Of a DNA stretch of 64,000 nucleotides, positions 4,290 to 59,580 are shown one piece after another. Each line of letters starts with the position of its first letter. Within the stretch, counting starts at the first letter, position 1. The notes beneath the pieces are model-generated. The model was not told the DNA's origin. It was given only the letters and a program-made list of their open reading frames with translations, and did not search any database. Origin of the DNA: Isoetes taiwanensis (Eukaryota; Streptophyta; Lycopodiopsida; Isoetales; Isoetaceae); assembly GCA_021234155.1 (NCBI GenBank), contig JAJEKV010000062.1, positions 7,642,425 through 7,706,424 on the forward strand. Reading direction: 5' to 3'. The translations under genes were made by a program, and so were the position numbers.

Positions 4290-5905
4290 AAATATTCCCC
4301 TAGGCTATATGAGATGCCATTAATGTTCCCCTGTATTCCTTAAGATCCCATTATGATTCCTCGAGATCCTTTACAATTCGATAAACATTCCGTTAAATTG
4401 CCCAATATTTTATGAAGGTTCCATTTTGTATTACGGTGATTGTACAAATTAACTAGAACTCAATTCAAAATCATAATGATGAAGGTTCCATAGAGATTCT
4501 CTAGATTCTCCAACATTCTATCAAGGTTTCTTTAGACAGAATTCCCTTAGATTCTTAAAGATTCTCTTGAGATTTCTTTAGATTTCCAAAAATTATCTCA
4601 AGATTCCTCTAGATTGCCCAAGATGCCAGCTAGATTCTCCTACATTCTGTTAGATTCTATGAAGATTTCTCTGCAAGCACACCTAATATCAAAGATTCTC
4701 CTAGATCCTCTGGGATTTTCTCCTAGATTTCCTAAGATTGCACAAAGATTTCCCTAGATTCTTAAGATTCTATAAAGATTCTCCTAAATTTTTGGGAATT
4801 ATTCCAAGATGCCTCTAGATTCACCAAGATTCTATGTAAATTCATTCAAAATTTCAAGGATTCATTCAAATTTTGTAAAGATTCCCCTATATTCTCAAAG
4901 ACTTTATGAAGATTCCTTTGGATTCGCCGAAATTCTCAAAGAGTTTAATGAGATTCCCATAGATTCCCCTAAAAGATTGTTTCAAGATTCACCTAGATTT
5001 CGCATGATTCTATGTAGATACTCTTTGATTTCCTTAGATTCTATGAAGATTCCTTTAGGTTCTCCAAAATTTCATCAAGATCCCCCTCGATTATTAAAGA
5101 TTTTATGAAGATTCCTTTAGATCCTATGAAGTTCCTAGACTTCATCAAGATTCTCCTAGATTCCCAAAGATTCTCTAAAGATTCACATAAATTCCCCAAG
5201 ATTCTATGTAGATTCTTATAGACTCTCTAAGATCCTAAGAAGATTTCCATAGTGCTCAAATATTCTATGAAGATTTCCTTCGATTCCCTTAGATCCTCTC
5301 GAGATTCCCCTAGATTTCTAAAGATTGCCCCAAGATTCACCTAGATTCTCCACGATTCTATGTAGATTCTCTTGGACACCCCTAGATTCTATGAAGATTC
5401 CTCTAGATTCTCAAAGATTTCATTAAGATCTCCTTAGATTTTTAAGGATTTTATGAAGATTCCTGCAGATACCCTTAGATCCTATTAAGATTCCCTTGAT
5501 TTCTTCAAGATTCCTCAAGATTATATGTAAATTCATTAAAATTTTCAAGCATTCATTCAAATTTTGTAAAGATTCCCCTAAGATTCTCAAAGATTTTCAT
5601 GAGATTCCCATAGATTCCCCTATATTTCAAAAAAAGTTTGTTTCAAGATCCTTTAGATTTCCCACGATTCAATGTAGATACTTTTCGATTCCCTTAAATT
5701 CTATAAAGATTCCTTTAGGTTCTCCAAAATTTCATCAAGATTCCCTCGATTATTAAGATTTTATGAAGATTCCTTTAGATCTTATGAAGTTCCTTTAGGT
5801 TCTCCAAGATTCCATCAAGATTCTTTTAGATTCCCAAAGATTCTCTAAAGATTCATATGAACTCCCCAAGATTCTATGTAGATTTTCATAGACTCTCTAA
5901 GAATA
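4290..5905. repeat. degenerate GATTCT minisatellite array
   Basis: About 1.6 kb composed almost entirely of variants of AAGATTCYCCTAGATTCTATG. A higher-order duplication is visible: the block beginning TATGTAAATTCATT at 4833 recurs at 5524 (period 691 bp) with the same order of variants. The same family occurs in the opposite orientation at 29.48-29.90 and 58.25-59.58 kb and weakly at 55.2-55.4 kb. ORFs within it have no codon structure. Confidence 0.9.
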
Positions 5906-6475
5906 CGATCAAGTTAGCTCCAACTGCGACGGAACGATGCCAAAGCACCACTCTTTGGAAAGTTCTCGAGGAGAGGAATCCAATGGTGTGGGTCCCACCT
6001 TCATCCGACCCCTCTACTGCAAGTTTTCGGCCCTTGAAGCTGATTATAAAAAAGAAGCTTCCTAGAAAGTCTATTCATTAATGATAGTGTCACCTCATTA
6101 ACTTTGAAATTAAATAAGGATGCCACCTCACCTCTTTTAATAAAGAAATTGTAATTTAATAAAAAATTTAATGGTTAAGATTTCTCCTCCCCCTTTTGAT
6201 CCCACGGTTAAGATTGACTGCACCAAAAAACACATTTTAAGGGACCTTCCTTGCACCTTCCCTTAAAAAAAATCAAAGGCCAAGATTTCTCGCGTGCCCG
6301 ATCCACGGTCCAGGGATGGGGTGCATGCCCCATGCATGCCCCATGCATGCCCCCCATCAAATCCAAAGGCCGTTGTCGCGCCACCTCAAAAAATGGACGG
6401 CCGAGATGAATCTCTACATAACTTTAACCCCCCATAGGACCCATAAAGTAATTGTATATATATAGTAGATATATA
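5906..6475. repeat. conserved module end flanking the GATTCT array (reverse orientation)
   Basis: The segment with CCACCTCATT, GGTTAAGATTTCTCCTCC, GGACCTTCCTTGCACCTTCC and GCATGCCCCATGCATG matches, as reverse complement and in the same order, 57.7-58.25 kb, where it also abuts a GAATCT array. It ends in AATTGTATATATATAG (6449-6464). Two copies with the same array, module and TATATA order indicate one dispersed element rather than chance low complexity. Confidence 0.75.
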
Positions 6476-37490: not shown

Positions 37491-38181
37491 TGATGAAAAC
37501 AGAGACAACTAAAGCAAACAAAACCTTCTGATCTTAATCAAGACACATCTTACAATACCCTGGCAATTACCCAATTCAAACTGCTGATAGTGATTCACTG
37601 CATAAGAAATTATCCAGCTAAATAAGCCAGAGCACAGAAGAAGGTGATTCACCGCTACAAGCAAATTCCAGTTAGTAAAACCGGAGCAAACAGGTGTAAA
37701 GCAAAATAGATCACTTATCAAACAAGCAGTTAGCAGATCTTTAGCCTCTGACAGGTTTTCACAGATCACAGCAGAAGATCGTTCAGCTGACTTCTCTTGA
37801 TCCTCCCAATCTTATTGGTACAGCAACCAGCTATTCATATGTTCTTCTGCTGCAGCTTCAGATGACCCAGACGACTCATGAGATCATCAACTCCTTCTAT
37901 TCCGCTTCAAGCAGGAGGCACCAGCACCAATCTTCAACAGCTACCTCTGCTGCTACTGTCGGAGCGCACAAACCAGGCCGATTCCTCTCACGGCAAACCC
38001 AAGAGCGTTTGCAAGCCGCATCAAATATCAGCTGCTCTTCCGTTGATTTCCCCTGTCCCGATCTCTGCTATTTAACTCAGATTTGCACCCACCGACTTGT
38101 TGCATGATGACATGTGTCGGTCTGATAGTGATGGACCTTATTATTTTTTTTTTAGTACAACAATGGCATGAATATCCAACA
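37491..38181 (-). repeat. Copia 3' LTR (691 bp)
   Basis: Identical by eye to the other LTR over the first ~255 bp (to about 37745) and the last ~80 bp. The middle (about 37746-38085) carries many small substitutions and indels, often CAG here against GG or GAG there. Confidence 0.95.
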
Positions 38182-39979: not shown

Positions 39980-40677
39980 TGATGAAAACAGAGACAACTA
40001 AAGCAAACAAAACCTTCTGATCTTAATCAAGACACATCTTACAATACCCTGGCAATTACCCAATTCAAACTGCTGATAGTGATTCACTGCATAAGAAATT
40101 ATCCAGCTAAATAAGCCAGAGCACAGAAGAAGGTGATTCACCGCTACAAGCAAATTCCAGTTAGTAAAACCGGAGCAAACAGGTGTAAAGCAAAATAGAT
40201 CACTTATCAAACAAGCAGTTAGCAGATCTTTAGCCTCGACGGGTTTTCACGGATCCACGCAGGAGAAGATCGTTGGTGACTTCTCTTGATCCTCCCAATC
40301 TTATTGGTACAGCAACCAGCTATTCATATGTTCTTACTGCTGCAGCTTGAGGATGACCCGGGCGACTCATGAGATCATCAACTCCTTCTATTCCGCTTCA
40401 AGCGAGGAGGCACCAAGACCAATCTTCAACGGCTACCTCTGCTTTTTCTTGTCGAGGCGCACAAACCAAAGCCGATTCTCTCTCACGGCAAAACCCAAGA
40501 GCGTTTGCAAGCCGCATCAAATATCATTTGCTCTTCCGTTGATTTCCCTGTCCCGATCTACGCTATTTAACTTTCAGTTTGCACCCACCGGCTTGTTGCA
40601 TGATGACATGTGTCGGTCTGATAGTGATGGACCTTATTATTTTTTTTTTAGTACAACAATGGCATGAATATCCAACA
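39980..40677 (-). repeat. Copia 5' LTR (698 bp)
   Basis: The partner LTR, directly next to the primer-binding site. It is followed at 40678 by the GATGG target duplication. Its divergent middle block runs from about 40237 to 40590. Confidence 0.95.
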
Positions 40678-42417: not shown

Positions 42418-43125
42418 GAATTCTGAGATTTTTTTGGGGGGTAACTCTTCTTTGTACATTTAACTTTCGGACAAATTGTCCTTTTGGCTTCTCAAAATGT
42501 CTTCATATGAACGTAATTCAACTAATGGCAAATGTGAACATATTGAGAGTACTGACAGTATTTGTTTCATTATGTCATCTGTTATATTGTTTGTTATGAT
42601 GTCTCTAATATTATGTTTTCTTCTTACTACAGGCACATATCTGGTCAGCAAACAGCAGGAACACGATTGCAAATTAAACGGGAGTGTTGCATCACTCCCG
42701 TTTCAAAGATTCCCTTTAAAAAAACACCAAGTTTCTAAAATAAGCCTTTTTTTTATAGTTGTTGAGAATTTCTAGAGGTTCGCATTTTTTTTATGCCATT
42801 TTGGCCCATCATTAGACGAAAACTTTGTATTTATGAAACAGAAATCATAAAAATAGCGAAATTTAGGCATAGACTTGAAGAGACTGAAAGCATTACAAAA
42901 AAACAAGCACCAGAATAGAAAGGAAAAAAAAGTACTATGTTTTTATTAAATTGTTGTACATCAATATTGAAGATTCATTGTAATAAGTAATGATAATTTA
43001 AATATGCAGTAGTCAAAGATCTACATCATAGTCCTCCTCATTCTTTTTTTGCTCTCGCCATCTCGTCCTTACATTCTATCTCTCCTTTCTTTGGAGACTT
43101 GAGTTTTTATCCTCCTTGTCCTCTG
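42418..43125. other. no recognised gene
   Basis: AT-rich spacer between the GDSL fragment and the 3' end of the methyltransferase gene. Confidence 0.45.
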
Positions 43126-43129
43126 GAAT

Positions 43130-46100
43130 GGTAGCTAAAGCTACTTCTTTAAGCTCTGCAAAGGTTGCCTCATCGTCTAGTGAGCCGGAGAATGGAGGTT
43201 TGTATCTCGAGGGCGTTAGTTTAGCATAATCGGATGAAGACTTGGCCCCTAGCTCTTGATGTTCATCCGTAAAGTAGGTAAAGCGGCCGGTCTCATCTTC
43301 ACAAAATTAACAACATCCTTATCAATATCCACGGCTACAGTTCGCGGCCCTTCTTAAGTGCACATGCGATAGTAGTACGAGAACCGGAGAAAGCATCAAG
43401 CACCCAATCTCACGGGCGAGAACATGTCCGGGAGATGGTTGATGAGCTTTGTGGTTTACGGTAGTGATTCACAATCCCCGCCTTGTGCGGTTGGGTCCCT
43501 ACAATTTCTCGTAACAACTTCTTTGGAAACTCAAGGGCGTTTGAGAAGTTTTGGCCAGGGCGGTGTTGAAGTGTTCCATGGTCCTCTTCCCATCAAAACT
43601 CCAATAAGCTACATGAAGGTACTCTACCTTGCTAAGCAACCTTGGTCCTCCACCATGGTAGTTGATGTTAGTTTTGTACCTAGTAAAACATTTAAAGTGA
43701 TGTTTACTTAGCAAAAACAAGAACACACTTCCGAAACGAGAAGCGAGGAAATACTATTCCTAATACACTACGTAAGCAAAGAGAAAAGTAATCATTTCGG
43801 AATAAGACTTACCGCACAAAGGTTTTCATATCCCACTGAACCCGGAGAACCAAAGTGGTTTTAAAAGGCTGATTCTACCAAGCCCGGTGCATGCTCGAAT
43901 GGAAAGTAACTAAACGCCAATGTTTAGCCGTTGTGATCTGCTTGATTCCATCAATAAAAGCATTAAACTCTGAAAATTTGAAGGGCTGGTCGTCATATCT
44001 GCTGTCTTTAAGCTTAAACCCGTAGGGAAGATCAGCAATAACCAAAGTGAAGTCCTGTGGCTTAACCGTTCCGACTAGCTTCGTGCAATCACCATGAATG
44101 ATTGAATATAAATTGTTTTGATCAAACATGCAGAATCTCTCGTAGTCGGATGGTTCTAACTCAACAGTTCTTACGTCCATTAACGACCTCTCTTCCCGTG
44201 CTGTTCTAACCAAATGCATGAAGCCCTCGGGAAGGTCTTTGTTTTTCTTTTTGCTCTGAGGAAAAACATGACAACAACTGTAAGGAGATCGTGTGTGCAA
44301 AGGCGAGGAATGTTGAGAGTACTTACCCAGCCCTCAAAATTTGGTGCATATTGCACAATTCGCTCGTCAGAAGTGGCTACAGGGTAGAGTTCCTTGCACC
44401 TTTCCCATGTCTCTCGTTTAGTTGCTCCATCAAACATGTTTGACATGTTATGACGTTCTTTTGGCTGCAAGGCGTTAAGGAAACAATGAGTTAGAAAGTA
44501 AGAAACAAGGCAAAGAAGAAGAAAAACAAATAAAAGTCAAGCTAAATGTATTACGGAATACAAACCGTTTTAGCGGTGATGTTACCTCTAAACAAAATGC
44601 ATTGTGTATTCCGGAATACACATTGCTTCTCTGAAGAAAGCAATGTGTATTCTGGAATACACAATACTTTTTTAGAAGAGGACATGTGTATTCCAGAATA
44701 CACATGGCTTCCTTTACATGGGCAATGTGTATTCCGGAATACACATTGCTTGTCTCTAGAAAAGCATTGTGTATTCCGGAATACACAGTGCCCATGTGAA
44801 GAAAGGTATGTGTATTCTGGAATACACTATCTACCCCGATGTTTTTGGGACTCTAACGTCTAAAGAGTAAAGTTTGTGGCAGAGATCTTACTTGTGCAAT
44901 TCCTTTGACATTTCTTCTAGGCTAAACTCCTTGTCAACAACTTTTTGGAGAAGCCTCTCCAAAATCTCTGTGTCGGAGAAGCCCTGCATTTCTCGCCAGA
45001 CGGTAATGGTCATTTCTTTTTTGGGCACGTCAGATGATTTTTTCTTGGCTGTCTCCTTGCCCTTGCTCTTTAACTCCCCTCGTTCGAACATTGAAAATAT
45101 CTCGTCTTGGAGTTCCCAAATCTGTTCAAAAAGATTTCACGTGAGATAGTTGATTTGTTATTCTGGAATACGTTTTGTGCTTACCTTGCCATCTCTAAAA
45201 GCTAATTGAAACCAGTTATCGTGGCCAATAAGAGACTGCCTTTTATTGGCCTCGTCATATTTTAGGCAGCATTCAATGGCACACGCCTCCTTAAGCTCCA
45301 AGGAAAACGCTGGCTTCTTCAGGTCCTCACCGTACTTTTCCTTGAAAATTACGTACTCCCTGTGCATGAACCGGATCTTGTCGTGCCAAGCTCATCTTTA
45401 GTTTATATTAGTTATCGGCATTGTGGGTGTTGGCAAGCGATTTTTCGCTTCTTCATCGGTAAGACCCGCGATGAAGCCAGTATTGAGGAGGGCGGAGAGG
45501 TACCTCGGGTTCTTCTTCTCTTTGTAAAGTTGCCTTCTTGCCTTGAAGCTGTGATTGCCTCCCAAGACGTAGTGAGTGTAGATCTCTGAGTTATCACTAT
45601 CATAATCCTGGGGGGTTTTGCACTGCTCCCTGTCAACAAGGACAACTATTGGGGCCACATGAGCATTTGGATTGCTCCTTATTCTGTCTTTCAGGTTCCT
45701 CAAGTGATCTGCGTAAATTTTGCGAACCTGAAGTGGCCTTTCACCAGCTTCATTTTTTGGTGGAAGCTTCATACAAGTGACTGGCAAATAAATAACACCT
45801 TGCACAAACTTGTGCAGGTTTATCTCCTCCATTTTTTCAGATGTTTTATCAACTTTTTTTTTTTTTGATGATAGCAACACCGGGTGCTTTGCCTTTCCCC
45901 TTCTTCTTCTTTTGTGCCTCGGGGCATCTTACATTTGCAATCAAAGCCGTTTGCTTTTTTTTAGGCTCTTTAGCGGCAACGGTTTGCCTTTGCCGCTTTG
46001 GTGGTGGTGACGGTGGCCTTTCGTCGGACACTGATGGACTCCCAGATGGTGATGCACTGCTCGGGCTATCTGGGTTATCTTCCCCTTCTTCTGACTCGCT

Positions 46101-46597
46101 GTAGGGGAAGTCCTCGCTCGTTGTGCTTCGAACGTAGTTAATGATAGAACAGAGCGACTTCTTGTTCAGGTAGTGAGAAACATACTTGTAAAGAGGATGT
46201 GGATTTACTTTCACCACTCTAAGGTATGATTCATCAACATGAATAAAGCCTTGGGATGTCTGAAAAGAAAATCTCCCTTCCTGACCGGACCAGCTACCTC
46301 ACTGACGGCCTGGATGGTGCCCATGCAGACAAACTCCCTGTCATCGTACCTTTTGGTTCCAGGGCTCCGACAGACATGTAGAAAAGTCAGGGTGCTGTAC
46401 TTTCCTGAAGTACCCCTTGTAAAGAACCATTGAGTCTGGAAGTTTTCGTAGATAGCTGGCGCAGCTGACTCCTCAAGCCTTCTCTGTGGGTGCGGTTTTT
46501 GTACGACTTTGAGGGGCCTTTTCTGTTGTTTCTTGCTGTTGTCTTGTCTGTGCAAATTGTTTGTAAACACGACCATGTTAGAGAAAACAGTAGCCAA
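43130..46597 (-). pseudogene. ParB/Srx-like domain plus N4/N6-type DNA methyltransferase gene, damaged
   Basis: Minus-strand gene with introns at 45122-45184 (GTAAGC..AACAG), about 44468-44891 and 44256-44326 (GTAAGT..CCTCAG). Order: an N-terminal unknown region (46597-46211); an acidic serine-rich then basic linker (46217-45849); a ParB/sulfiredoxin-like domain (45880-45398; VRKIYADHLRNLKDRI, GGNHSFKARRQL, GLTDEEA). Next is a helical linker (45367-44888), then the methyltransferase with motif IV ADLPYGF (44036-44016), TRYKTNINYHGG, SFDGKRTMEHFN, and motif I DAFSGSRTT (43397-43371; normally SGSGTT) followed by VAVDIDKD. Motif IV before motif I is the beta-class order. A ParB-like domain joined to such an enzyme is known from phages and bacteria; introns here show a eukaryotic gene. 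Single-base shifts at an A12 run (45856), 46215, 45400 and several 3' sites break it. Confidence 0.82.
44603..44828. repeat. six phased 20-bp palindromes within a methyltransferase intron
   Basis: TGTGTATTCCGGAATACACA or a one- or two-base variant at 44603, 44644, 44685, 44726, 44768 and 44809. Start-to-start spacing is 41, 41, 41, 42 and 41 bp, close to four helical turns. Spacers differ from one another, so the palindromes, not the whole unit, are conserved. A degenerate seventh lies near 44546. The array occupies the intron between the exons ending at 44892 and starting at about 44467. Confidence 0.95.
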
Positions 46598-47250
46598 AAA
46601 CTATTCCAGAATACAAAATGTCTTGCAAAAAGGGAAAAAAAGGGCAAAAAGAGGACAAAAATGCCAAAAAAAGCACTGCAATCTTGACAAAAAAACTGGT
46701 CTAAACAAGCTTTAAATGCAGCAAAAACGCCTAGATTAACTAAAAATCGCATGGAAAAGTAACCTCTTAAAACCTAAAAACACGAAAGTGTATTCCGGAA
46801 TACACTTTCGCCTTCGACTGAAGGCCAAAGTGTATTCCGGAATAAGAAACAGACATGCAAATGATTGTACGTTGTACTTTCTTACTGACCTGTCCATGTT
46901 CTCTCTATGTAAATCGGAATACAGTCTCTGAATATTATAATCGAGTATTTGGCGTGGCTTGAGCTCGAGACTGAATACGCAACCCGAAGGCGTAGAAATT
47001 TCCTTTTAAAGGTATCATTTTCGTCTTGCTCTTTTTCTATGTGATGCGAATACGTTCAGCTTTACTATCCTACTCTTGTGTATTCCGAATAGCTTTTATT
47101 TTGACTTTCACTTGATTAGTCTTGGAACTTCTACTTGTACTCACGTTGGCGTGTATTCGAAATAAGAAAAGCTGCATTACGTAAAAGTTTCTCAAATCTC
47201 TTTACTATTTTGCGGTTGTCAAGATGACCGAACCGCCGTGAACAAGCTTC
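46598..47250. promoter_or_regulatory. divergent intergenic region with further palindromes
   Basis: Separates the minus-strand ParB-methyltransferase gene from the plus-strand gene. It contains a perfect 28-bp palindrome (46783-46810; CGAAAGTGTATTCC plus its reverse complement), a half copy 42 bp further (46830-46843), and decayed versions at about 46598, 46908, 47075 and 47150. The CCTTCGACTGAAGG spacer is itself nearly palindromic. Placement between two divergent starts suits operator- or iteron-like sites. Confidence 0.7.
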
Positions 47251-50200
47251 CACCACCTTTTGTTGTCTCAAGCTCGTGCGGTTCGAGGACACGCTTGGGA
47301 ACAACGTCATTTCTAGTGAAGACCGGCATTCTCCGAGTCCTACCTGCTTCATCGTTGTTGCTTCTCAAGACACACCGAGTCCGACACAAATGACTTCCAC
47401 CACCCTTCCAACCGTCACCAAGTCCTCAGGCGGCCTGCTGGCATCTCCTTCCAAAGAATCACCACTAGTTGGGAGCGGGTTGCCACCACCCTTTGTTCCA
47501 TCCCGGACTGCGAAGCTCCACAACAAAGGTCTTTGAAGAACAAGCTACCCCCCTTTATAGTTTAAGCCCCTTACGTTGCAAACATACAAGGAACCGCGAG
47601 AAAACGTAAGACCGTGAGATTCACTACAATTTCTCTCACCGTGACTTCACTACAAATGAGGACGGCGGCTCCGATGCACTCCTCTTCACACAACAACGGT
47701 TGTGACACATGGATTTGCGAGAATTCCAGTCGCTCTAAAGGAGATGTTTGCAAGAACTCCTTTTCAAGATGGTACAAGAACGGTGATGCCACAACCTCTT
47801 ATGGGCCATCGCCATCCTTTAACACTTGTACCCCGCCTATTAGGGAACAACTTCACGTGGTCTGCTTTTCCTCTACAAGCACACCACTTTCGGGACGAGG
47901 AAGTCACCCCCCAGTAGAAGTTTCATCGGAAGATGAAGACACCAACGAGGAACAAAGAGATTACATGTTCTCAAGCCAATCTTCAAAGAAATTCAAGGTG
48001 GATTTTGGTTTGAGGGCGTGCTCCTCTCAAGAAGAAGAAGAAATCTTATGGATGAACACAAAATGAGGAGACTTTTGAGAACTAAATGCTACTCATTGGG
48101 TTGCATCAACAATTTAATATGGCTAAATTACGAAAGCATTAGAGACAACTACTGTTCCATGACATTGGCGGACGAGAATGCCTACTTAGCTTATCATGTA
48201 AGACCGGACCAAGCAACACCTTCTTGCACTACATTAACCGTCAAGAAGTTTGCCGTAAATGCTTTATGGTTGTCCACCGTTTAGGGTCCACCGGGAATGT
48301 CCAGAATACACAAAAGACCGGACAAAAATCCAAAGAATCGATGATCATTGTGGGCCAAGAAGAGTTGTAACCATGCATGCCCTTCTTCTTTGTGTCATGG
48401 ATGGAGAAATATTTTAGAGAAACATGTGAGAAGCTACCTAACAAACAACATGTATCATTTAACGATAACATCACCAAAAAGATGTTTTTAATGAGTACAA
48501 AGAGACTTGCACTCGGCTTGAGACATCTCTTACTCACACTTCACCGGTGTGGAAAAGTGAATTCGGTCTTGTGAAAATTCCTAGAAAACATAGAATGTCC
48601 GTTTTGCTTTCGAGGTGTCGCGAAATTAAAGAGTCAACGAGAAACCGCAAAAGGCAGAGGTCGAAAGAAGTAAGCTCATGTTCTCCAATCTCTCACTTAT
48701 TTCGGAGAAAATGTTTTGACCTGATTTCTTCTACGATATTGTGCAAATGAGAACCTTGCCCGGACATCGTGAACAACAAGCGTGAGAGAGAGAAAGAAAG
48801 CTTGCCAAGCATAGAAAAAAAAAAGCTCTTGAACGTCCAATTTGCAATACATGTCATTTGTGATTGATGGAATGGACCAAAAAACAACTCTACCACATTT
48901 CTTGAACATTCCTAAGGATGTGCGGAGGAATGTTTTGTTAAGGTCCACCTTGTAGGAGCTATGGTCTTCAAAGGAAGTCTAAAGTGCAAAGTATTTTTGA
49001 CGTATCAAACTTGCATGGTGACCCGAACCTCACAATTACAATTCTTAACAAGGTCCCGTATGTCGAGCAAGAGCAATTACCACCGTGCTTTATCCGCAAC
49101 TTGACAATACTACAAGGGAGAACAAGAATCAAACACTCTTTAAGTCATCATTGTTAGTGGAGCTAGGGATCTTTAGAAAAGTGAAGCTTCGGTTTCTTAC
49201 TTGTAGGCCACACTCATGATCCAGATTGACCAAATGTTAAGCAGATTTTACGGCGCCTTAGAAGGAAGAAGGCTTTCATCTTCCTTCTTTAGTTCTAATT
49301 ATTGAAGATTCTTACACTCCTACTCCATTAATTCGATCTTCTTAAAGAGACCGCTGATTTTAGAGAGTTTGTTTTCTCTCAACGTTCAAACGAGAGAACA
49401 AGGCGTGAACAAGTTGAATGATCTCACCTTCGACATCATATCAAGTTCTACTTGAAGGATGGCCAAAGCTTCTTCTGAGGGGAAGAAGTATACCACAACT
49501 AAGGACCTGAGTCCACCCGGGGATTACGCTTCCTTAAATATATTCCGGACACTTCCTTCATAGAAGCGTCTTGAACAACTTCCTCTCAAAAATCCTAAGG
49601 AGTCCAAGCGGAAGAAAAGTACCCCGAGTCATCCTTAAAAGCCATTGAAAATGGAATTTCCTCGAGCTTTAAGTACTTCTTAGAAGAAGATCGGATGTGG
49701 TGGAGTAATTTCTTTCTCGAACAGAAAATTGTTGTACAAAATATAGCTCTAAGACGGTTGCAAGAACCATTTCAATGGCCTAACACCTTCCATCAACCCC
49801 AAAGACCAAGGGTCCAAGCGATTACTACATTTGCACCGGCGGTAGAAGACGAGGAGGACCGAGTCATGTACCTCGGACCAAGGCGCAGAATGAGCCTCAA
49901 GGTAATATCCGCGAAATTACCAAAGGTATGCTAATTGCTCTTCCGACCGAGGAGGATGACAAAGGTCGGCCACTTACGGATAGCAAAAGTGCTTGACCTG
50001 ATCAAGGAGGAAGGCTTAGTCACTAAACTCAAGATTCATTGGCTTGCAACACGCTCAGAAAATGCTTTTGAAGGTAGATATGAGTTAGAAATGAGAAGCC
50101 AAGGAAAAGGGAGAAAGTCCAAGAAGGTGGGTTGTAGGGACGAGCTGAACCTTAATGACGTGACTATTTTGTGCTATGATTTTAAATTGAAATCTGACAA

Positions 50201-50335
50201 TCGTCTACGCCAGAAGACTATCAATTTGCTTAAAAAAGCTTGTATTTAAGAAGATGATGAAGAAGGTGGTGACAATGCTTCACCGATGCGGTGATAGTGA
50301 TGAGGAAGATAACTCAAGCACTTCCTCGGATGATG
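47251..50335 (+). pseudogene. VGHTHxxxDQ-family protein gene (DUF7869-like), heavily decayed
   Basis: Successive blocks in changing frames follow the order of this widespread uncharacterised eukaryotic family: a serine/proline-rich N-terminus (47276-47980); a CLxxLxxxxIxxxR-like block (48085-48245); then WMEKYFRETCEKLPNK (48401-48448); VWKSEFGLVKIPRKHRMSV with a cysteine and REIKEST (48545-48645). Next are GDPNLTITILNKVPYVEQEQ (about 49020-49080), GIFRKVKLRF followed in another frame by VGHTHDPD (49168-49230; a stop replaces the Q), and a C-terminal RIAKVLDLIKEEG..LKIHW (49980-50040) with DVTILCYDFKL. The family function is unknown to me. At least eight frame breaks make it a pseudogene. The family name is from memory; the motif match is what I see. 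Confidence 0.68.
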
Positions 50336-52980
50336 ATTGAAAGAAGTGAAGGTGATGACGATGGCATAAATGAACATGAAGACGTCCTGGATCCCTCTCT
50401 CATCACTCCTCACACTTTTGCACATAACTGAGTCTTAGAAAAACACTGTAAATTTTGATGTGAATATGAAGATTCTATCTTCAAATTTTGAGAATACTAC
50501 AGTTTCAATTACAGACTTACTTCAATTTTTTGTTAAATATTTTATCCACTGAAATTAGAGTTTCTCTCTTAAAACATACTTTAAGAACATTCTTTTTGCT
50601 AAGAAAAGTGACACTTTAAAAAGTCAATTCCTTAGTTGCAAAAAAAATTAGTCATTTTGGGGTCAAAATAGAATTTCATGCATCTTTTTTTTTTAAACCT
50701 CATTTTACCCCCTTTTTTGTAAAAAAAAAAGGGAATCTTTGAGGAATATTCCTTTTGCTCTCGTTTCAATGATTTGCTCCCGTTTAATACGCAACTTTGT
50801 TCAGGATGCATTGCTCACAAAAGATAATAGAAAATTGGCTATCCCTTTCTTGCTATTGATTGCACAACAAAGGTCAAAGTAAAAGGCTTACTAGCTATTA
50901 AATGATGTGTATTTCATAGGCTTGGTGTGATCTCATACACGATGTCTTCATTTTTAGCATTATTACAAGTGCCAATGTCGCTCATTATGAAGATGGTGAG
51001 TGAAGCGTTATGATAGATGCCATGGAGCCTTTGTTACAATTTGTTGATTTCTCAACCGTTGCTTTTTCCCCAACAATAACATATGCACATTAAGTGGCTT
51101 ACATCTTGTTACGATACACACAAGTAAATGTTGAGGTTTTGCAACGTTTGCATTTTTCCTCGTGTTTAGCATGGTTGATCACATTATATTGTGCAAGATT
51201 TGTTCAGACATTGCATGTTCTCTTGGCATTTTGGGCTGCGACAAGATTTATTTACCAATCTTAATATGAGTTTAAAATCTTGAAACTAGGAGTATGTGGA
51301 ATTTGATGTGGGCTGGGGACGGGGGTAGCAATGGTTAAAGTTTGTGAGGTAGTTTATATTAGTGACGATGTTAGTAGTTGGAGTTGCGTTGATCATGTCT
51401 TTACATGCATTCCCAAAGAAGTGTTTCACCTAATGTCTTTGAATAATTTCCGTTGCATGGCAGACAGATTTCTTTTAGTTCTTCATTAGCGAATTGTTGT
51501 CGTCGCATTTTAAAACCGTGGTACCTTAAGGATTTTAAAATTAGAATTATGTTTCAAGTAACGTACGGTATTTTCATAAGAAGGTAGTTCTTATACAATG
51601 TAAATGATAGGGCGTCAGGAGTGGGTTACAGTAATTTTGCCCTAGGTTGATGTGATACTGCCCCAGCTGAAATATCCACCCGATTGAACCCATTGGACAT
51701 GGGTGACTATGATCTTGCCTTGGATTGATGTGTTATCACCCCTCCAAGGAATTGAACTGGTTGGGTGCAACGAATGAGTGACCATAGTCATCTTGCTTTG
51801 AGTTTGTTTGATGCCTCTATCTAAAATAGTGTAACGAGTGACCATAATCAATCTTGCCTTCATATGTGCAATACCCCTTTTTTAGAATATTGCAAGGTTA
51901 ATATTGCCTTGAATATGTGTGATAGCCTCCATCTAGAATATTGCAAGGTCAACCAAAATTAAACCTACTCTATTACCATCCCATCCAAAACATGCCAAGG
52001 CATTGTCTCTAGAATGCACATAGTCCAATAGGCATAATGAATGGGTGACCATAATCTTAGAAGGCATTGTTTAAGGTAGAACCAGGAATTGAAATTTGGG
52101 GGTGGCAATCGAAATTTGGGGGTAGGGGGGACCCCGAATTCAAAAAAATTCTAAAAATTTTCAATAGCAGAAAAATGTTTTCGGCACTTTTTCAGGCCAT
52201 TTCCATCAAATTTTCTAGGGTTTCTAGGAAAGTACACTATAAATTTGTGTATTTATGGTAGTCTTAAATCTAAGGGCGCATCCCCATTAGGCCGTTATCT
52301 AGGCTTGACTTTGCCACATGGCAAACCCAGCCAGGAAAAAATCATTCCCATTACCTTCCAAGGCACCAAAGTTCTGCTGACGAGTCCAGGACAACTTCCC
52401 TTTCTTAAGCCTCAAGGACTTAGACGTGTTGGAATTGGGGACTGCTAATTTTGAGCAACAACTTGGACTTTGAGATGGTATTTTCTCTTTTCCATATCTT
52501 TATGGCTAAAGTGGTTATATACTTAGCTTGCACAGCCGCAGATTGTTGATGACTTAACGTCTGTGTGTATGAAAGTCATTTTCAATAAAGATTTTGTGGC
52601 ACGACAACATGGTATTGTTGGCTTGCATCATCATCTTGCATTGCATTTCATCTTCAGGTAAGTTGTGTTTATGGTTGAATGTTTCTCCAGTTTTGTCTCT
52701 AATCTCGAGGTCCTTTTGTTTGCAGAAATAGGTGGTCGGTTAAGCATATTGAAATGAATAAAAAGGCTTGCAAATATGTTATTTCAGCCATATGTTTTAA
52801 AGGGATGTTTAAGAGGAGAGCGGCGGAGAGGGTTTGTCCATGTTGATATGAATACTTTTTTTTCCATGTATGGAACACTTCTTATGGACGATTCTTAGAT
52901 GCATTGTTGTTTCTGGAGCTCTTCTGCTGGAGAAATTAGCAAGAATGTGTGGTTCATGGAATAATTTAAGGGCTAAACTT
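50336..52980. other. non-coding, with a degenerate repeat
   Basis: No gene recognised. At 51610-52060 a degenerate unit with GGGTGACYATRATCTTGCCTT and ATTGCAAGGT recurs about five times. The remainder is AT-rich. Confidence 0.5.
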
Positions 52981-57674: not shown

Positions 57675-58250
57675 ATTTCTTGTATATATATAATTATTCT
57701 ATGTGTCCATGGGAAACGATGTACCCATGGATTGGTTACATATTCAAATCAATCTAAGCCGTCTATTAGGGGGCCAATGAGGTGGCACAACTAGGGCCTT
57801 AGGATCTACATGGGGTCATGCATGGGGCATGCACCATGCCTCTAGACCATCGGATCAAGGGGGAAGGCAAAATCATAGCCCTTGATTTTTTTAGGGAAGG
57901 TGCAAGGAAGGTCCCTAAAGGTGCTTTCTGGTGTGGCCAATCTCGGCCCTTGGATCAAAAAGGGGAGGAGAAATCTTGGCTATTAAATTTTTTATTAAGT
58001 TGCAATTTATTTATTAAAGGAGTTGTGGCATCCTCATTTAATAAAAAAAGTAATGAGGTGGCACCAACATTTATTGAAGGAATTTCGAGGAAGCTTCTTT
58101 TTTGCAATTATCTTCAAACGCCCGTAACTTGCAGCAAAGGGGTCAGATGATGGTGGGGCCTACGCCATTGGATTCCTCTCATCGAGAGCTTTCCAATGAG
58201 TAGTGTTTTGATATCGTTTCGTTGTAGTTGAAGCGAATATGATCGAATAC
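57675..58250 (+). repeat. dispersed module copy 4, array-linked form
   Basis: CTTGTATATATATAATTAT is followed by an ordered match, in the opposite orientation, to 5.9-6.47 kb: GGGGCATGCACCATGCC, GGAAGGTGCAAGGAAGGTCC, GGAGGAGAAATCTTGG, TCATTTAATAAA, GTGGGGCC, and GAGAGCTTTCCAATGAGTAG. The array starts directly after it. Confidence 0.8.
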
Positions 58251-59580
58251 TAAGAATCTTCTTGGAATCTTGGAATTTTATGGATCTATGGGAATTTAAG
58301 AGAATATAGGGGAATCTTCATAGGATCTTAAAGAATGTAAAGGAATCTCAATAGAATCTTGAGGAATCTATGAGAATCACAAGAGAATCTTTTAGAATCT
58401 AAGCGAATCTTTATAGAACCTTTGAGAATCTAGGGGAATCTTGATAAAATCTTGAAGAATCTAGGGGAATCTTCATAGATTCTAAGGGGATCTGAGAGAA
58501 TTTACATAGAAACTTGGGGAATCTAGAGGAATCTCAATAGAATTAGGGAATCTATGGAAATCTTAAGAGAATCTTATGAAATCTAGCAGAATCTAAGCGC
58601 ATCTTCGTAAAGTCTTTGAGAATCTACGTGACCTTTAATGGAATCTCGGAGAATCTAGGGGAATGTACTTAGATCTAATGGAATCTAGGGGAATATACAT
58701 AATATCTAAAGGAATCTAGGGGAATCTACATAAAATCTATATATAATCTTAGAGAATATAGAGGAATCTTTGTAGAACATTAAGAATCTAGAAGACTCTT
58801 TGTGGAATCTTGGGGAATCTTCCACATTGGATGTGTTTTGCAGGGGAATCTTCATAGAATCTACGGGAATTTAGGAAAATCTACATAGAATCTTGGAGAA
58901 TCTAGAGGAAACTTGGGTTAATCTTTGAGAATCTAGAGGAAAGTCTTGAGAATCTTAAAGAATCTATGAGAATCTCAAGAGAATGTAGAGGAATCTAAGG
59001 GAATCTAGAGGAATCTCAACAATATTAGGGAATCTATGGGAATCTTAAGAGAATCTTATGAAATCTAGCAGAATCTAAGCGCATCTTTGTAAAGTCTCTG
59101 AGAATCTACGTGATCTTTAATGGAATCTTAGAGAATCTACGGGAATGTACTTAGACCTAATGGAATCTAGGGGAATATACATAATATCTAAAGGAATCCA
59201 GGGGAATCTACATAAAATCTATATATAATCTTAGAGAATCTAGAGGAATCTTTGTAGAACATTAAGAATCTAGAAGAATCTTTGTGGAATCTTGGGGAAT
59301 CTTTCACATTGGGTGTGTTTTGCAGGGGAATCTTCATAGAATCTTTGGGAAATTAGGAGAATGTACATAGAACCTTGGAGAATCTAGAGAAAATTTGGGT
59401 TAATCTTTGAGAATCTAGAGGAAAGTCAAGAGAATCTTAAAGAATCTATGAGAATCTCAAGCGAATGTAGAGGAATATAAGGGAATCTTCGTGAAATCTT
59501 CGAGAATCTAGGGAAATTTTTTCTAAGCCTTGAAGAATCTAAAAGAATCTTTATAGAATCTTCACTAGATGGCTCAAAAT
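58250..59580. repeat. GAATCT minisatellite array with 482-bp higher-order repeat
   Basis: Degenerate GAATCTAGGGGAATCTTCATA units over 1.3 kb. A block beginning TCTATGG near 58551 recurs at 59033 (period about 482 bp) with the same variant order, including an unrelated CACATTGGRTGTGTTTTGCA insert at about 58832 and 59305. The insert shows that the block, not only the unit, was duplicated. Confidence 0.92.

Follow-up and report, generated by a model that had tools for sequence, protein, structure and literature searches.

Family-specific palindromes in the non-coding DNA of an Isoetes taiwanensis DNA transposon that carries a ParB-like/methyltransferase gene

In bacterial ParB–parS systems, a ParB-type domain is accompanied by clustered palindromic sites. 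According to the available text of a 2025 survey, in which 'plant' and 'transpos' each occur 0 times, N6_N4 methyltransferase fusions are frequent in phages within the ParB-CTPase fold (PMC12704722). A related gene has been reported from the brown alga Ectocarpus, where the 21.5 kb element Sola1-1_Ec32 encodes, opposite the transposase strand, a 1104-amino-acid protein with ParB-like and N4C/N6A methyltransferase parts. As far as the text available goes, its authors suggested that this accessory protein may bind and modify its own transposon and attributed similar green and red algal genes to Iyer 2011 and Petroll 2025, and the word fragment 'palindrom' occurs 0 times (PMC12477816). In Arabidopsis, the parts of the report consulted describe VANC as a protein that binds repeated motifs in the non-coding DNA of its own VANDAL family and removes silencing marks there, the motifs being short, tandem and different between related families (PMC10398659). 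The present analysis concerns a stretch of 64,000 nucleotides from Isoetes taiwanensis (assembly GCA_021234155.1, contig JAJEKV010000062.1, positions 7,642,425 to 7,706,424 of the forward strand), referred to below as the window, in which one of two divergent genes on a DNA transposon (42660-50801) combines a ParB-like domain with a DNA methyltransferase and holds an array of palindromes in one of its introns.

As in Sola1-1_Ec32, the ParB-like and methyltransferase parts are joined in one gene, in a DNA transposon and opposite a candidate transposase, so the accessory gene is of a known kind, already reported for the Ectocarpus Sola1 element in the text available (PMC12477816). The Isoetes elements differ from it in their length of 7.9-8.8 kb, in their defined site arrays and in the presence of two families, A (including the window copy) and B, with different palindromes. 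No report of target arrays for transposon ParB-methyltransferases was found in the literature searched. VANC appears to be the closest functional analogue, as here, too, short motifs are repeated in the non-coding DNA of the element and the motif differs between related families (two in this case). In contrast to VANC, which strips host methylation, the Isoetes protein would add a methyl mark, and its element is built of ParB-like, DNA methyltransferase and DUF7869 parts; the protein scans returned no VANC-named Pfam match, a direct comparison with the VANC sequence not having been made. The ParB-type domain, the clustered palindromes and the methyltransferase fusion are shared with bacterial ParB–parS and with the phage fusions, from which the element differs in having a spliced transposon gene and GGNHS in the ParB motif.

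Analysis of the window recovered the six 20-bp palindromes at 41-42 bp that a sequence-only reading of this DNA had placed in an intron, as well as the further ones it had seen in the upstream divergent region. Allowing up to three mismatches, the window contained seven palindromes, the array of six at 44603-44828 and a single one at 46787, compared with none in 100 dinucleotide shuffles. The six array copies (44603..44828; pattern and repeat search) are of the TGTGTATTC(C/T)(G/A)GAATACACA type, three being exact, two having one mismatch and one having two, with start-to-start spacings of 41, 41, 41, 42 and 41 bp. They lie in an intron on the minus strand (44465..44891), which was delimited by its splice-like ends and by matching of the flanking exons. 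A core search added a decayed seventh site in the same intron (GTATTACGGAATAC, 14-bp core, 44548..44561) and two single near-sites, one in the intron preceding the array intron (TATTCTGGAATA, 45159..45170) and the other just upstream of the methyltransferase reading frame (TATTCCAGAATA, 46602..46613). The intergenic pair (46787..46850; pattern and repeat search) consists of AGTGTATTCCGGAATACACT and a second site in which the core is exact and the right flank has been lost.

The ParB-like open reading frame had 150 scored homologous places in the same genome, drawn from 2820 first-look candidates. Twenty gene-first copies of about 9.9 kb each were picked among the 150 listed for their long open frames and, together with the window, gave a set of 21 copies. 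In this set, 339 cores, TATTC(C/T)(G/A)GAATA, were found at no more than two mismatches, whereas 20 shuffled cores gave 0-28. The ten outer columns of the core hardly varied among the 238 distinct 30-mers. The core columns reached 1.8-2.0 bits except for the central CpG, compared with 0.03-0.7 bits at positions at least 7 bases outside. The central C had become T in 26% of the 30-mers on one strand and in 29% on the opposite strand, as deamination of 5-methylcytosine (5mC), the presumed cause, would produce.

The sites were located in the intergenic region, in an intron array and singly in other introns, and each of the 21 copies had intergenic as well as intron sites. Taken together, the 13 full-length copies held 197 sites in 33.2 kb of non-coding DNA and one in 74.5 kb of coding-like DNA, with none in 19.8 kb of flank. 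In the divergent copy L031, the intron array was short and sat in the preceding intron. Spacings of 40-43 bp accounted for 152 of the 216 neighbouring spacings of up to 130 bp in the 21 copies, and the remaining 64 showed little 10.5-bp phase (R = 0.23, or 0.08 over the 31 distinct values). Given how weak the phase is apart from the 40-44 bp class, tandem duplication seems to have produced the helical phasing as a side effect, and the proposal that all sites are held on one helix face was abandoned as a constraint.

Genome-wide, TATTCCGGAATA cores occurred 4830 times, in comparison with 65 for the reversed control, and the 18-mer and 20-mer occurred 2585 and 299 times, respectively, each with a control of 0. 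Palindromes without the gene had been named beforehand as the observation that would speak against the sequence-only reading. The search was also run from the palindrome side, on 22 of the 25 listed clusters; these contain 47 of the 50 20-mers listed, out of a total count of 299. Every one of the 22 lay inside an element copy and matched the ParB-like open reading frame, 21 matched the methyltransferase exon (E ≤ 1e-3), and 71-100% of each stretch was covered by similarity to the 21 copies. Chance palindromes were rejected by the shuffle controls in the window and in the family B locus described below, and by the genome-wide control counts.

Family B was represented by the locus L057, which contains a DUF7869 gene with a 600-amino-acid open frame and a ParB-like open reading frame 48% identical over 260 residues to that of L029, a better preserved family A copy. 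No family A TATTCCGGAATA core was found in this locus at up to two mismatches and no family A 14-mer at up to three. Instead, it carried nine GTAT-N6-ATAC sites, every one of them containing NAATTN, whereas 200 shuffles yielded 0.05 on average and never more than 1. Six of the nine were intergenic and three lay in the intron after the ParB exon. The palindromes of the two families have the outer GTAT..ATAC arms in common and differ in the inner hexamer. A genome-wide count gave 64 occurrences of GTATGAATTCATAC and 11 of the control; among the 50 GTATGAATTCATAC sites listed, 23 lay within 5 kb of a listed match of the family B ParB search (110 matches scored). Most of these 110 listed matches belonged to a third group of ParB open reading frames, whose identity to family B is approximately 50-65%.

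The window copy is a degraded member of a high-copy two-gene DNA transposon of 8142 bp (42660..50801), at the ends of which the likeness of most copies to the window breaks off. The element is bounded by terminal inverted repeats (TIRs), 42660..42684 on the plus strand at the methyltransferase-gene end and 50777..50801 on the minus strand at the transposase-gene end (inverted-repeat search and end comparison), and flanked by the target-site duplication (TSD) CAGG on the left (42656..42659) and on the right (50802..50805). The transposase-side end could be located in 16 of the 21 copies and the methyltransferase-side end in 17. Each of the 13 copies with both ends had an exact 4-bp TSD of varied sequence and TIRs starting with AACA. 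A 24-mer of the methyltransferase-side end occurred exactly 318 and 303 times on the two strands (621 in total; control 0) in the 1.66 Gb host assembly, which is evidently eukaryotic from its size and introns. The 4-bp TSD and TIRs are features of the Sola1 superfamily and were present in all 13 two-ended copies. The element is thus probably Sola1-like, an assignment based on the TSDs and the Ectocarpus parallel and not on a transposase comparison; DUF7869 was named in none of the papers searched. In L020 and L022, when compared with L018 and L029, the N-terminal and ParB parts tracked different subfamilies; the N-terminal part of L020 resembled L029 and its ParB part L018. Such apparently mosaic copies hint at module-swapping recombination.

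The ParB-like/N6_N4 methyltransferase gene of the window (43076..46582, minus strand; reading-frame analysis and profile match) is spliced and carries several frame changes and in-frame stops. The architecture proposed in the sequence-only reading was retained, while the copy on which it had been based turned out to be a broken pseudogene and one half of a transposon. The motifs GGNHSFKA (45562-45539), ADLPYGF and DAFSGSRTT were read on the minus strand as claimed. The methyltransferase region (43340..44255, minus strand) gave a PF01555 match of 1.1e-6 in the window read-through, and the L029 copy, in which motif I reads DAFSGSGTT in place of DAFSGSRTT, matched PF01555 at 5.2e-17 and phrog_67 at 4.2e-20. 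Motif IV ahead of motif I is the order of beta-class methyltransferases, and the region was assigned to this class because motif IV (ADLPYGF) stands before motif I. The D-L/I-P-Y form of motif IV suggests N6-adenine methylation. The ParB-like domain (45398..45844, minus strand), with its VLGGNHSFKA motif, was matched by the TIGR03764 ParB family (best value on the aligned set 1.4e-5; 8 of 10 sequences at E ≤ 10) and by the phrog_1033 ParB-like partition protein (best 2.7e-6; 4 of 10 at E ≤ 10). Judged by these profiles on the better copies, the N6_N4 methyltransferase appears strongly and the ParB-like domain moderately supported.

Since NG86 synonymous rates were saturated for many subfamily pairs, differences at third codon positions were compared instead, with L026 dropped for its unequal length. 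Over a 141-residue ParB-like stretch, distant family A pairs differed at 43-61% of third positions and were 86-92% identical in amino acids; for closer pairs, 2-25% of third positions differed. Third-position divergence with conserved amino acids shows that purifying selection acted on the ParB-like protein in those lineages which spread. No helix-turn-helix (HTH) family was detected in Pfam scans of the gene products. By eye, an HTH-like stretch (SLEEMSKEL / PKER) was noticed after the ParB-like domain, split by the array intron (window 44464-45121, minus strand).

Comparison with other genomes gave no close relative of the ParB part, for which no match was found in phages and none was confirmed in viral contigs or prokaryote genomes. 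Two weak plasmid matches were obtained, by annotation a partition protein of the ParB family (E 0.5) and a nuclease (E 0.1). The methyltransferase part resembled many phage methylases (26-42% identity among the matches listed) and one IMG/VR locus (29% identity), and the motif IV exon of the window had no match in viral contigs. A phage or virus origin by close homology was rejected, as the ParB part was unmatched in phages and unconfirmed in viral contigs.

The divergent gene (47230..50430, plus strand) was also degraded in the window, being broken by stops. It was delimited by tblastn pieces and by a DUF7869 match of 2e-18 on the window read-through, which rose to 1.5e-43 in L029 and 2.5e-54 in family B. 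This gene most likely encodes the transposase. A sub-threshold RFX_DNA_binding match precedes DUF7869 in both families (L057 2263-3744, minus strand, 0.013; L029 6151-6915, plus strand, 0.023), and the segment ahead of DUF7869 is possibly the DNA-binding domain of the transposase gene. The genome contained 9902 first-look candidates for DUF7869.

The best explanation of these data, to which a probability of about 0.55 was given, is family-specific self-recognition and marking by the transposon-encoded ParB-methyltransferase. A dimer of the protein would recognise the family-specific palindrome with GTAT-N6-ATAC arms in the intergenic region and the introns, and the ParB-like part may help the protein to load or spread at these sites. 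The methyltransferase would then deposit N6-methyladenine (6mA; motif D-L/I-P-Y) or N4-methylcytosine (4mC) on the element's own non-coding DNA, where the mark could have an anti-silencing function, regulate the divergent promoter, or both. The location of the palindromes in non-coding DNA of the transposon, with another palindrome in the related family, fits the earlier idea of a self-recognising mobile-element system.

A more specific and doubtful version treats the composite site as a programmable address, in which the GTAT..ATAC arms would be read by the ParB/HTH part and the inner hexamer (TCCGGA in family A, GAATTC in family B) would be read and N6-methylated by the methyltransferase. 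Both hexamers are shaped like restriction-modification targets in this version, and the resulting family-specific adenine mark on the element's own non-coding DNA would be hard for host 5mC silencing to overwrite. If true, this would amount to a modification system carried by a eukaryotic transposon, with a specificity code of its own.

Several observations weigh against self-recognition and marking. The Pfam scan of the ParB-like part yielded no ParB family and only DUF6551 below the cut-off, and the sole matches among PDB sequence profiles were an unrelated protease and a portal protein. L057, which gave the best phrog_1033 match, had no NCBIfam match and showed a sub-threshold Phage_connector match (0.0083), and AlphaFold2 run on the window open reading frame alone, with no alignment, reached a predicted local distance difference test score (pLDDT) of 41. 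In family B, no ParB match was listed within 5 kb for 27 of the 50 sites listed, and the control implies that about 11 of the 64 sites are due to chance; five of these 27 (C1060:6302120-6305241) share the site layout of the C1037 copy. The comparison covers two families, B being known from one fetched locus and from genome-wide site positions. The one further DUF7869 locus sampled, L058 (C1103:972116-974316), contained no clear ParB sequence and neither palindrome within the 2.2 kb taken, and DUF7869 elements without the accessory gene may exist. The site list was itself chosen at up to two mismatches, and the core conservation may partly be due to young age, most copies being broken and the central CpG being the most mutable. 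Retention of CpGs at the sites, compared with other CpGs as a protection footprint, had no clear direction.

Among the alternatives, the most serious one regards the palindromes as operators through which the ParB-methyltransferase or the transposase would simply autoregulate the divergent promoter, with the methyltransferase acting elsewhere. Intergenic sites in all 21 copies and the intergenic position of six of the nine family B sites favour it; however, the longest family A arrays are usually intronic, some 1.7-2 kb into the gene, and promoter control alone would require neither these nor the single sites in other introns. This alternative is possible but clearly the less probable one. Many transposases bind internal repeats, and the palindromes, confined to the element and present in every copy of the set, could likewise be required in cis for transposition, as binding sites for the transposase or as replication/synapsis sites. 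Such a role is unlikely, as the sites are not subterminal (in the window and L029 each lies more than 1 kb from the nearer element end) but occupy intergenic DNA or the leader and introns of the methyltransferase gene.

It is still less probable that the intron arrays are RNA hairpins or tandem-repeat by-products (a source of small interfering RNA, or splicing elements) with no DNA-binding partner. Palindromes can in principle fold in RNA, and the arrays do grow and shrink by units of about 42 bp, but the same core recurs in intergenic DNA and several introns, its conservation is lost seven or more bases outside, and family B has a different palindrome. Some plant transposons carry heat-shock elements, and TTCnnGAA is contained within TTCCGGAA, so the sites might recruit heat-shock factor or another host transcription factor. 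The GTATGAATTCATAC-type sites of family B occupy the same kind of places without TTCnnGAA, which led to rejection of the heat-shock-element version, and the intron arrays would be left unexplained, making a host factor in general very improbable. Plasmid-like partition, also raised in the sequence-only reading, has nothing in its favour beyond ParB homology: the ParB-like CTPase domain of ParABS systems was recognised by modest profile matches and by none in Pfam, and to our knowledge the site sequence is unrelated to the parS consensus.

Two further repeats were observed in the window outside the transposon. An inverted pair (4541-6345 and 57809-59516), about 69% identical over 1.7 kb and made of GATTCTAGGGGAATCT-type tandem repeats with units of 31, 93 and 482 bp, could represent sub-terminal arrays of an element of approximately 55 kb or two copies of one satellite. 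Direct repeats adjoining the transposon (37491-38181 and 39980-40677), 94% identical over 703 bp and 2.49 kb apart, resemble either long terminal repeats or a tandem duplication.

The analysis supplies candidate targets for transposon ParB-methyltransferases in the form of the GTATTCCGGAATAC and GTATGAATTCATAC arrays, with a corresponding protein for each. If self-recognition and marking is true, a transposon would have taken over a ParB of bacterial type and a DNA methyltransferase and, as a parallel to VANC, used them to write an epigenetic tag of its own, and the Isoetes elements would offer a direct handle on the disputed role of 6mA and 4mC in eukaryotes.

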